DNA of 64,000 nt from Marinomonas lutimaris (GTDB taxonomy: Bacteria > Pseudomonadota > Gammaproteobacteria > Pseudomonadales > Marinomonadaceae). A program made the position numbers and the translations under genes. The notes beneath the pieces are model-generated. The model was not told the DNA's origin. It saw only the letters and a program-made list of their open reading frames with translations, and did not search any database. The stretch covers positions 62,001-126,000 of the forward strand of contig NZ_JAHLLW010000012.1 of the NCBI RefSeq assembly GCF_019426345.1, in the 5' to 3' direction. Shown here piece after piece: positions 16,597 through 20,690 of the stretch. Positions within the stretch are counted from its first letter, which is position 1; each line of letters begins with the position of its first letter.

Positions 16597-17280
16597 TTAT
16601 ACGAGACCTGCTTTTGCTGTTTCGGCAAAAATCATCTCGACAACCTGCTCTATCGTCAAATCCGTGCTATCTATAACTAAAGCGCCTGCTGCAGGCACAA
16701 GAGGAGCAATCGCTCTATTTGCATCTCGCTCATCTCGCTCTTTAATCGTTTTAACAAGTTCATCTAGATTAACAGCTTCGCCTTTTTGCTGCAATTGCTG
16801 CAAACGACGTTGCGCACGCTCTTCTGCCGACGCGGTTAAAAATACTTTGATCTGGGCTGAAGGAAAAACCACCGTCCCCATATCACGACCATCCGCCACC
16901 AAACCCGGCGCTTGTGAAAAAGCACGCTGACGAAGTAACAAACCTTCTCGAACTTCTGGAATAGACGCTAATTTAGATGCACTATTACCAACCTCTTCTG
17001 TTCGAATAGCTTGAGTAACAATTTCACCTTCTAGAATAATTTCAACTTTACCTTCTTCTGACTGCTCAAACTGTATATCCAAATGCTCTGCTAAGATTTT
17101 TAACGTCTCAACATCATCAGAAGACATACCGTGATGCGATACAGCAAGTGCAAGCAGTCGATATAAGGCACCACTATCAAGTATGTGCCATCCCAGCTTT
17201 TCTGCGATTAACTGACTTACGGTGCCTTTACCTGCACCACTTGGACCATCAATCGTAATAACTGGGCCTTGGTTGATCAT
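16597..17280 (-). CDS. cmk: Cytidylate kinase
   Basis: Phosphorylates CMP and dCMP to the diphosphates. 227 aa, with the P-loop [12 protein letters not shown] at the N-terminus, [12 protein letters not shown], and the [11 protein letters not shown] motif of the NMP-binding region; [14 protein letters not shown] and [14 protein letters not shown] form the lid region. It lies 19 bp after the tyrA-aroA fusion and upstream of rpsA, the conserved aroA-cmk-rpsA order. Confidence 0.97.
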
Positions 17281-17299: not shown

Positions 17300-19546
17300 C
17301 TATTGCGCCACCGAGCAATGAAAACCTAATTGCATCGCGACACTCTCCAACTCGTTAAATTCTTCTAATAATTTTTGACAATCATTCACCTTGGTTATCG
17401 ATTTACTTCGTGCCCCCAGCGCCAACATGGCAAGCGCTAACTTATCATCACCAGCACAATCCAACTCACCACCCTGAGGAAGCCCGCCATCAATAAGCAA
17501 ATCACCATTTTCATAAACACAGGCAATTTTCATATGCGCAAGCGCATCCACAAAAGCCAACACTCTATCCTCATAGTAATAAGGCAGAGAACCAACTCCT
17601 TGAATACGACTTTCGCCTTTTGCGTAAGCAGCTGCGACACACAACAAAGGCAACTCATTTCTAAACTGATAACTCTGCTCTGGTAATAGAGTGAACGACT
17701 GTAACTCAGCAAACCCTACCTGCACCTTACCTTCGCACAACCCAGTAACACTCTGCTTAGGAATAGACACGTCCGCACCAATCGATTTTAAAAACGAAAA
17801 AAATGCAAAAGACACCGAATCTAAACCAGCGTTTTCAATGAGCAACTCCGAACCAGGCAGCAAGCTCGATAACAACACGAGCCAAGCCGCCTCATACTCA
17901 TCGCCAGACAATACAATATCCGTACCAACCAAAGGAGCCGAAACAAGCCTAAAACCACCAGCCTGATCCAATATAGTCACACCAAATTGACGCAATAACA
18001 CTTCACAGTGAGAGACACCTAATAACAACGGTTTAACAAAACTCTCAGCGGGCGAATACAGCGCAGCCAAAAACGCTGACATGCGTAAGCGCTCAGATCC
18101 AGCTTTCAAATCCACAGATATATTCGAAGACTTACCAGGAAAAAGATTCACCGGCAGACAATCCGCCATTTCAGAAACAACACGGCCGCCCATTTTGCGC
18201 ACCAAAGAAAATAAATCACCCATTGATTGATTGAGCAACTTACCTTCAGCAACGACAGACACAGAAAATGACTGCCCAGCCAAAACAGGCAACAGCAAAT
18301 ATAAACTTTCCCTAGACTGATGCACGTTAATTGGTGCAATGGGCGCTTTTAAACCGCGAAGACCAACACCATGAACCCGCAAATGGTCAGCAGATACCTC
18401 TTCAATCACCACCCCCATATCCCTAAAAGCCTGCATGGTGATGCGCACATCCCCAGTCAGATCAATGTTCTTTATCTCACTCACACCCTCTGAAAGCGCC
18501 GCTATAGTAATCGCTTTATGTGACAAAGATTTGTCACCTAACAAAGAAATATCACCTTTAATGGCAGAAGCCGGCAAAACAGAAACAGATACGGGACGAA
18601 CTTCTTTCACAGCACCAATTGTACGCTGCTCTAGTAATCGAAGAAAATGATCTCGCGCAGACTTGGCTCGAGTAAAAACACCAAACATGCTAGTGCCGTC
18701 ACCTTGGTCTATGGCGGCGCGCATATCAGCAAGACGATCAGTAAAATGATCCAAGGTGGCTAAAGTAGCCTCTTTATTTGCTAAAAAGACATCTCGCCAC
18801 ATCACAGGATCACTGGATGCTATTCGAGTGAAATCACGAAAACCACCCGCAGCAAACTTGAATATATCTTGACTACGCTCACCATTAGCAAGCGCATCAA
18901 CCAAGGTGTAAGCAAGCAAATGCGGCAAATGACTTGAGGAAGCCAATACATGGTCATGATGATCAACATCCATGCTCACAACATCCGCCCCAACTGCACG
19001 CCAAAGGCGATGAAGACGATCCAACAACACAGGATTACTGTCAGCCAATGGCGTCACTATGGCCATATGTTTTTCAAAAAGCAGAGGGTTAGATGCCAGC
19101 ACACCGCTTTTTTCCGCACCAGCAATAGGATGACCCGGAATAAAATTAGCCGGAACATATCCGAAAACGCGACGAACCGCCTCAACCACACTACCTTTCG
19201 TTGAACCCACATCAGTCACTAACGTATGCTCAGACAAAAAAGGCTTAAGATCAGACAAGACAGACTCCATCGCCCTTACCGGAGTAGCGAGAACAATGAC
19301 ATCCATCTTAGAGATAAAATCCGCCGACATCTCTGCAGGATGATCTATAACACCCGTTGAAACACCTAGAGCCAACTCACCTTCTCGCCGATCAACCGCA
19401 TATAGCGTTGCTAAGCCACGCTCTTTCAGCGCTTTCGCGAATGAGCCACCTATCATGCCAAGACCGATGATCATTACATTGCCAAATTTCTTTTTTTCTT
19501 GGGACGTCATATCAACAGACGCTTGAAAATCATTTTCACCAGTCAA
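17300..19546 (-). CDS. tyrA: Prephenate dehydrogenase fused to a degenerate EPSP-synthase (AroA-like) domain
   Basis: 748 aa. The N-terminal half (about 22-315) is a TyrA-type dehydrogenase making 4-hydroxyphenylpyruvate: NAD loop GLGMIGGS (residues 28-35), [22 protein letters not shown] and [11 protein letters not shown] are intact. The C-terminal half (about 325-748) is homologous to AroA over its whole length, as in the Pseudomonas fusion, but key positions differ. GDKS is kept (337-340), the following Arg is Lys344, the NSGT loop is QSRES (410-414), the SAQVKSA motif is SERLRMS, the catalytic Asp before Glu is Asn630, KESDR is YYEDR (about 657-661), and DHR is DDK (700-702). The dehydrogenase should work; EPSP synthesis by this domain is doubtful, so another aroA would be needed. 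The frame is intact, so the domain is being kept. Confidence 0.9.
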
Positions 19547-19568: not shown

Positions 19569-20690
19569 CTAAAGCACAGCCACAGGATAGGAACCCAACA
19601 CCTTCACTTCCGAAGCACGTTCACGTAATTCATCGATTACGGCACGACAATCTTCATCTTGATAATGACCGACGAAATCAATATAAAATATATAACCCCA
19701 ACGACTCATTAAAGAAGGACGAGTTTCCAGACGCGTCATATCAACCCCATGGCGCTCAAAAGCCTCAAGCAATCGATACAGAGCACCCGGCTCATTTTTC
19801 GCACTAATTAGCAGCGATGTTTTATCTTTACCACTTGGTGGAACATCCTGATTACCAACAATCAAAAAACGCGTAGTATTATCAGGACGATCTTCAATAT
19901 TAGAAGATACTTTCAATAAACCGTATAGCTCACAAGCTACCTCACCCGCAATCGCAGCAATAGCACGACCACTGCGACCCGCTTCAGCCGCAAGACGAGC
20001 CGCTTCAGCGTTGGAGCTTACAGCAACACGCTCTACATGCGGCCAATAACGATCCAACCAAGCACGACATTGTGCTAAAGACTGTTGATGAGAATAGATA
20101 TGAGTGACATCTTCAGAGTTGATATTCGGACTCACCAATAAATGATGGTGAATTCGTTCTTCCACTTCTCCGCAAATTTTCAAACGCGAATCCCGAAAGC
20201 TATCTAAGGTATGATTAACAACACCTTCGGTCGAATTCTCAACTGGCACAACACCATAATTCGCAGCACCAGACTCAACTTCACGAAAAACCTCATCAAT
20301 AGCCGCCATAGGTGCACTAATAATAGATTTACCAAAGTGCTTTAACGCTGCCTGTTGCGTAAAAGTGCCCTCTGGCCCTAAAAACGCAATGCGCATCGGC
20401 TTCTCAAGCGCGAGACATGAAGACATAACCTGACGAAATATCTTCGCCATTTCCTCATTCCCCAAAGGCCCTTCATTGCGCTCCATAACCCTACGCAGAA
20501 CCTGAGCCTCACGTTCAGGGCGATAAAAGACAACGGCTTCCCCACCTTGCTCAGCAAGCTTAACTTCAGCCACTTTTTGAGCGCAGGATGCACGCTCATT
20601 AATGAGCATTTGAATTTGCGAATCAATCGAATCAATACGATCACGCAATAAAGGCAGCGTATCTGGCACTGCTTGTTTAGAATTTGACAT
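19569..20690 (-). CDS. pheA: Bifunctional chorismate mutase / prephenate dehydratase
   Basis: P-protein (373 aa) that converts chorismate to prephenate and then phenylpyruvate. It has an AroQ-type mutase domain (about 10-95, LRDRIDSIDSQIQMLINERA...YRPEREAQVLRR), a dehydratase domain (about 100-275, FLGPEGTFTQQAAL, VPVENSTEGVVNHTLDSF) and a C-terminal ACT domain (about 283-365, NEPGALYRLLEAFERHGVDMTRLE and ETRPS) that senses phenylalanine. It sits between serC and the tyrA fusion, 22 bp before the latter. In Pseudomonas a hisC-type aminotransferase lies at this junction; here it is absent. Confidence 0.97.
   Translation of the reverse strand: MSNSKQAVPDTLPLLRDRIDSIDSQIQMLINERASCAQKVAEVKLAEQGGEAVVFYRPEREAQVLRRVMERNEGPLGNEEMAKIFRQVMSSCLALEKPMRIAFLGPEGTFTQQAALKHFGKSIISAPMAAIDEVFREVESGAANYGVVPVENSTEGVVNHTLDSFRDSRLKICGEVEERIHHHLLVSPNINSEDVTHIYSHQQSLAQCRAWLDRYWPHVERVAVSSNAEAARLAAEAGRSGRAIAAIAGEVACELYGLLKVSSNIEDRPDNTTRFLIVGNQDVPPSGKDKTSLLISAKNEPGALYRLLEAFERHGVDMTRLETRPSLMSRWGYIFYIDFVGHYQDEDCRAVIDELRERASEVKVLGSYPVAVL

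Follow-up and report, generated by a model that had tools for sequence, protein, structure and literature searches.

Organization of the fusion gene and its neighbors

On the minus strand of the window, by which we mean the whole stretch of Marinomonas lutimaris DNA analyzed here (64,000 nucleotides), we found a tyrA-(pseudo)EPSPS fusion gene of 748 codons (positions 17300-19546). The reading frame starts with TTG as listed, with an ATG 12 codons further in, and runs through without a single internal stop codon. The product scored 952 bits against the NCBIfam model NF011381 and thus passed the curated cut-off (902 bits), its TyrA half and a full-length EPSPS-like half sharing one frame. Pfam placed PDH_N/PDH_C at residues 36-290 and EPSP_synthase (PF00275) at residues 326-726 (E 6.8e-39), which agreed with the initial annotation of an AroA-like domain within one intact frame. 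The TyrA (prephenate dehydrogenase) half covers residues 20-300 (18647-19489, minus strand), and the degenerate EPSP synthase domain, delimited by profiles, alignment, site rates and predicted fold, covers residues 322-748 (17303-18583, minus strand). The nearest named relative was a protein of M. polaris (91% identical), in a search that may omit the own genome.

The fusion gene lies directly downstream of pheA (chorismate mutase/prephenate dehydratase; 19569-20690) and directly upstream of cmk (cytidylate kinase; 16597-17280), both on the same minus strand and both conserved operon neighbors. Judged by their own sequences, the flanking genes are pheA and serC on the upstream side, and cmk and rpsA on the downstream side. 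Synonymous divergence at the 3' end of the fusion gene (residues 680-745; 17300-17509) was about half that of the other parts (0.27 vs 0.52-0.68 in eight close pairs), which is perhaps linked to the start of cmk just downstream.

Loss of active-site residues in the fused domain

Our alignment combined the window domain, E. coli AroA, 54 fusions for comparison and 56 free class-I AroA proteins (43 from the genus and 13 others). The comparison fusions comprised 34 fetched from the 52 fusions of the order sample described below that lack a class-I aroA, and 20 mostly Halopseudomonas/Pseudomonas loci, whose second aroA status was unchecked. Sites are numbered after E. coli AroA, whose sequence was matched letter for letter against 1g6s. 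We took 18 class-independent positions, known from the E. coli enzyme, to represent the active site of EPSPS; two of them are touched by PDB titles (1q36, Asp313Ala; 1mi4, Gly96Ala). All 18 were canonical in every one of the 54 comparison fusions and the 56 free class-I AroA proteins, whereas the window domain retained six (K22, S23, D49, S169, R344 and D384). The remaining positions were replaced (N94Q, G96R, T97E, R100Y, R124Q, Q171R, D313N, K340Y, E341Y, H385D, R386K and R27K), and so the active-site residues expected of an NF011381 member are largely missing.

The initial annotation had listed six altered AroA motifs, and the alignment recovered each of them in its place on the minus strand. 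The former NSGT loop reads QSRES (residues 410-414; 18305-18319), the former LSKRPM motif reads LLNQSM (437-442; 18221-18238), in which Q440 is the equivalent of R124, and the former SAQVKS motif reads SERLRMS (484-490; 18077-18097), in which R486 is the equivalent of Q171. Asn630 occupies the position of D313 (17657-17659), YYEDR has replaced KESDR with loss of K340 and E341 and retention of R344 (657-661; 17564-17578), and DDK has replaced DHR (700-702; 17441-17449). Among the key residues of EPSP synthase (K22, Q171, D313, K340, E341, R344, H385 and R386), K22 and R344 were present and six were replaced. The EPSPS half also scored 145 bits against TIGR01356 (EC 2.5.1.19), below the cut-off of 287. 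From the sequence, we infer that the fused domain lacks EPSP synthase activity. Moreover, 53 of the 152 positions that are invariant in intact fusions were retained in the window protein; invariant positions outside the pocket were lost to a similar degree, so the loss extends beyond the pocket.

Similar results were obtained across the Marinomonas group, for which we analyzed 48 genomes (the own genome included, one genome per species). In all 48 the fusion frame was open over 731-772 codons and the fused domain fell below the TIGR01356 cut-off. Four sites (K340, E341, H385 and R100) were retained in no genome, and others in a minority: G96 in 1, Q171 in 4, N94 in 8, R124 in 10, R386 in 11 and D313 in 18 of the 48. 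On the other hand, R344 (47/48), K22 (46/48), S23 (42/48) and S169 (41/48) were mostly retained. When 33 of the Marinomonas-group proteins were scanned, 11 reached about the NF011381 cut-off (with E 2e-271 taken as a proxy for 902 bits). The deviations had been open to explanation by sequencing error; since all 48 genomes agree on the open frame and losses at the same sites were seen repeatedly among them, both sequencing error and a recent pseudogene could be ruled out.

A free class-I aroA and the decay of fused domains in related families

Three matches to the EPSPS family were found in the own genome, scoring 478 bits (a 430-codon ORF), 411 bits and, for the fused domain, 136 bits; the first two we take, from sequence and score, to be class-I AroA and MurA. 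The separate class-I aroA lies at C65:130617-131843, and its active-site residues were canonical in the alignment. Thus, the second aroA that the initial annotation had predicted for this genome is present. An uninterrupted free class-I aroA was also found in 46 of the 48 Marinomonas-group genomes. One exception (G041) lacks a free aroA in an assembly that is 77% complete; the other (G026) has a free class-I aroA interrupted by a frameshift (about 1070-1160 of L081) that may be an assembly error or a recent break, and its fused domain is dead as well. This broken gene was left out, as were the free aroA genes of G012, G022 and G035, which were not fetched.

In the order sample, we counted by hand 62 genomes with an open frame of at least 700 codons over the AroA match among 115 evenly sampled genomes (shorter partial frames in G058 and G152 were excluded). 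Class-I aroA was defined here as a free frame with about 460 bits or more against TIGR01356. It was absent from 52 of the 62 genomes; 51 of their fused domains scored 396-434 bits and that of G127, cut by a contig end, 356 bits. The 10 genomes with a class-I aroA included three intact fused domains (406-417 bits), three half-decayed ones (297-308) and four from Marinomonas (147-175). Decayed fused domains therefore occurred in 7 of the 10 genomes with a class-I aroA vs none of the 51 uncut genomes without it, where genomes of one family are not independent and the seven decayed cases represent three families (f1, f6 and f37). Of seven further genomes with a class-I aroA, five (two of them from f6) had TyrA alone, in frames of 296-333 codons, and two had a frame of about 646 codons.

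In two families, class-I aroA was defined as a free match scoring 165-205 bits against the fusion model. In f6, a free class-I-type aroA was present in all 22 genomes, beside a full-length fusion in 8 (fusion-model scores from 897 to 540 bits) and TyrA alone in 14 (297-365 codons). The f6 fusions beside this gene (L244, L245, L095, L096 and L246-L249) were in graded decay, with 17 of 18 sites retained in L247, 16 and 14 in others, 4 in L245 and 2 in L244. In f44, one genus (g44; L250-L254, L162 and L163) had shortened frames of 607-647 codons that retained 1-4 of the 18 active-site residues, and the matches of their tails to the domain profile lay mostly near the beginning and in the second half of the profile, residues 425-545 being 89% gaps. 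In all six loci fetched from another genus of f44 (g86; L255-L260; 529-561 codons), TyrA ran in frame straight into cytidylate kinase without an EPSPS domain, a TyrA-Cmk fusion that is probably the product of a middle-domain deletion. The free-standing TyrA proteins of f6 and the sampled genomes indicate that TyrA as such is independent of the domain. Conversely, all 18 sites were retained in L097-L099, three fusions that occur beside a class-I aroA, and in the fusion of G163 (L261); redundancy can thus precede decay and does not alone force it to be quick.

In a 24-row tree built for the free aroA, the 13 class-I genes from outside the genus clustered with E. coli AroA, apart from the fused type. 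The seven Marinomonas-group rows stood next to f37 (support 89/82); the f6 rows were split among three positions and the f44 rows between two, with several forks weak. This scatter of f6 and f44 suggests that a free aroA was acquired more than once. A class-wide outgroup search for the free aroA returned the own genome as the sole match at the threshold used.

Predicted fold

We predicted the structure of the window protein with AlphaFold2 from an alignment of 53 sequences (the window protein and 52 of the 61 loci L164-L224), which gave a mean pLDDT of 86.6. The best structural matches of the domain were EPSP synthases, with a TM-score by target length of 0.90 for 5buf. Because intact fusions were part of this alignment, the prediction was repeated with 33 Marinomonas-group sequences only (the window protein and 32 of the same 61 loci). 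In this second model the pLDDT of the domain (320-730) was mostly about 90, better than that of the TyrA half, and the best structural matches were again EPSP synthases, a result to which the program's memory of the fold may contribute. Of the genus cells in columns with strong hydrophobicity in intact fusions, 78-89% were hydrophobic, vs 12-19% in columns never hydrophobic in intact fusions. Thus, catalytic residues have been lost while the fold is predicted to be kept, as in a pseudoenzyme. The crystal structures of EPSPS from Acinetobacter baumannii (5buf/5bs5) and Coxiella (4egr) resemble the predicted domain in fold, with TM-scores of 0.88-0.90 by target length, whereas the window domain is 25-27% identical to them and has lost the active site. 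Among the 45 PDB chains listed, none spanned both halves in its best stretch.

Selection on the fused domain

Site rates were estimated on one tree per set, for the genus and for two sets of intact fusions. First, the ratio of domain to TyrA rates was 3.44 in the genus vs 0.61 and 0.55 in the two intact sets. Second, the mean rate percentile of 21 pocket positions was 0.53 in the genus (0.51 in random sets), whereas it was 0.27 and 0.16 in the intact sets, where none of 2000 random sets was as low. K22, S23, S169, R344 and D384 were still slow sites in the genus, which could reflect residual ligand binding.

A one-ratio codon model was then applied to 22 members of the genus, namely the window protein and those sharing at least 75% identity with it. 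Omega was 0.106 for the domain and 0.030 for TyrA, and pairwise estimates were about 0.10 and 0.03, respectively, so that the domain behaves as a pseudoenzyme maintained by selection. The free AroA (21 of the 22 genomes) also had an omega of 0.030. The N-terminal third (residues 322-424; 18275-18583, minus strand) was the most conserved part (0.048 in the one-ratio model and 0.02-0.03 pairwise; overall range 0.02-0.05) and the middle (residues 425-679; 17510-18274, minus strand) the fastest (0.121; range 0.12-0.14), with the C-terminal part at 0.083. In 20 Halopseudomonas-type loci, omega was 0.053 for the whole domain and 0.035, 0.051 and 0.077 for its parts. Their pairwise omega for the domain was 0.07-0.10; in absolute terms, therefore, constraint on the dead domain is about equal to that on a presumably working domain, or as low as half of it. 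The TyrA half itself was more conserved in Marinomonas than in these fusions (0.030 vs 0.093).

Constraint at the nucleotide level could be ruled out for the N-terminal third, where dS was the same as in TyrA (0.52 vs 0.54 in eight close pairs); the constraint consequently acts on the protein. In this third, 43 of 103 positions were conserved at 95% in the genus vs 52 of 103 in intact fusions, whereas for residues 425-545 the counts were 8 vs 50 of 121. There were also 13 positions conserved at 95% in both sets with different residues. Newly constrained sites in the genus numbered 16 of 424 in the domain vs 69 of 281 in TyrA. The proportionally higher TyrA control leaves a new function acquired through such sites unsupported, but this is weak evidence against it, as the control sets a high bar: the TyrA half as a whole evolves slowly in the genus (4.59 vs 16.37 changes per site in the order set).

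The initial annotation had proposed a dN/dS test and reasoned that the domain is either retained for something other than EPSP synthesis or altered in its chemistry. With an omega of about 0.11, far below 1 and without conservation of the pocket, and with a canonical aroA elsewhere in the genome, the first of these options appears the better one. Changed chemistry is disfavored, since pocket positions evolved no more slowly than random domain positions and newly constrained sites were not in excess.

Possible reasons for retention of the domain

We consider it likely that the fused domain has become a pseudoenzyme scaffold after redundancy with the free aroA, and is not a second EPSP synthase. 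An ancestral bifunctional TyrA-EPSPS of the Marinomonas lineage would have been redundant for EPSP synthesis once a separate class-I aroA was present. Relaxed catalytic constraint on the fused domain would then have allowed the active site to be replaced piecemeal, the replacement itself being visible in the sequences. A profile search with PDH_C gave a single match in the own genome, the TyrA half of the fusion; as this first half is the only TyrA, the fusion gene cannot disappear. The dead domain would stay in frame and folded, in keeping with an omega far below 1 and the predicted fold. It would be retained because TyrA depends on it or is burdened by it, probably with the role of scaffold or stability partner. 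Most likely, TyrA leans on it physically (through solubility, oligomer formation or interdomain packing), mostly via the N-terminal third.

A rather unlikely alternative is that the domain has no function, is spared misfolding since breaks or aggregation would harm TyrA, and will be lost at the first clean deletion. Mere avoidance of misfolding may explain an omega near 0.1, and the domain-less TyrA of related families, the shortened relics of g44 and the TyrA-Cmk fusion of g86 are outcomes that it would anticipate. However, none of the 48 Marinomonas-group genomes has lost the domain or broken its frame, even though identity to the window protein falls to 52% among the proteins compared, and the omega of the N-terminal third is near that of TyrA. 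It is also conceivable, but doubtful, that the former EPSPS domain has turned into a module that serves the control or assembly of TyrA without catalysis, with the N-terminal third and cleft-side loops as its new working surface and with parallel conversions in progress in other families of the order.

A regulatory module, which would sense a metabolite of the shikimate pathway (such as shikimate-3-phosphate or phosphoenolpyruvate) and tune TyrA without catalysis, appears less likely still. A role of this kind is possible given the retention of K22, R344, S169 and S23 in most genomes and an N-terminal third about as constrained as TyrA at the amino-acid level. It would also accord with the 13 positions conserved with different residues in the two sets, and with positions that are variable in intact fusions and (nearly) invariant in the genus (390, 401, 403-405 and 692-699). 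Passages of Song et al. (2005) suggest a similar fate for the remnant in P. syringae (PMC1173090). On the other hand, the pocket positions taken together change at the average rate of the domain, and the proportion of newly constrained sites is lower than in the high-bar TyrA control. Finally, despite the predicted EPSPS fold and the retained K22, R344 and D384, it is very improbable that, with its altered residues, the domain still acts as an EPSP synthase or as some related carboxyvinyl transferase, since the positions of D313, E341, K340, Q171, R124, H385 and R386 are all substituted in the window protein and variable across the genus, the pocket is unconserved and a canonical aroA lies elsewhere.

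Comparison with known systems

The window protein belongs to a graded series across related bacteria, from intact fusion through redundant, half-decayed, dead-but-folded and shortened forms to full loss of the domain, which offers a testing ground for the cost and benefit of retaining a dead enzyme domain. In the literature searched, whose scope excluded most subscription journals, we found no paper on a TyrA-EPSPS pseudo-domain in Marinomonas. The bifunctional prephenate dehydrogenase/EPSP synthase of NF011381 (PRK14806) has the same architecture as the window protein, which exceeds its cut-off but lacks the EPSPS active site; the family name probably misstates the second function. Automatic annotation can thus assign a second activity that is very probably absent, a point of relevance to metabolic modeling and to surveys of EPSP synthase classes.

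A similar situation is described for Candida albicans Aro1 (PMC9074039), whose DHQase domain is inactive through active-site substitutions, with Dqd1 compensating; this dead domain mediates the homodimer, and its deletion had no growth effect. As in Marinomonas, a fused shikimate-pathway domain with a substituted active site is kept while a separate enzyme supplies the step, but the domain and the organism differ, and inactivity and structure were measured there.

The closest precedent is the P. syringae fusion, whose EPSPS (AroF) domain, according to passages of Song et al. (2005, PMC1173090), lacks about 200 residues and occurs beside a probably laterally gained EPSPS gene; two passages place the deletion at the N-terminus and a third at the C-terminus, and the remnant was proposed as a possible new regulatory domain. 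As far as these passages describe it, the fusion and the kind of operon are the same, the gene order around the window fusion being close to their supraoperon, and fused EPSPS function was likewise lost beside a stand-alone EPSPS gene. In contrast with that deletion, the Marinomonas domain is full-length and has been changed by substitutions genus-wide, with selection measured. Therefore, the principle is already in print (PMC1173090, PMC9074039), and what our results add is a full-length domain kept across a genus, on which selection can be measured, and parallel decay series in related families.
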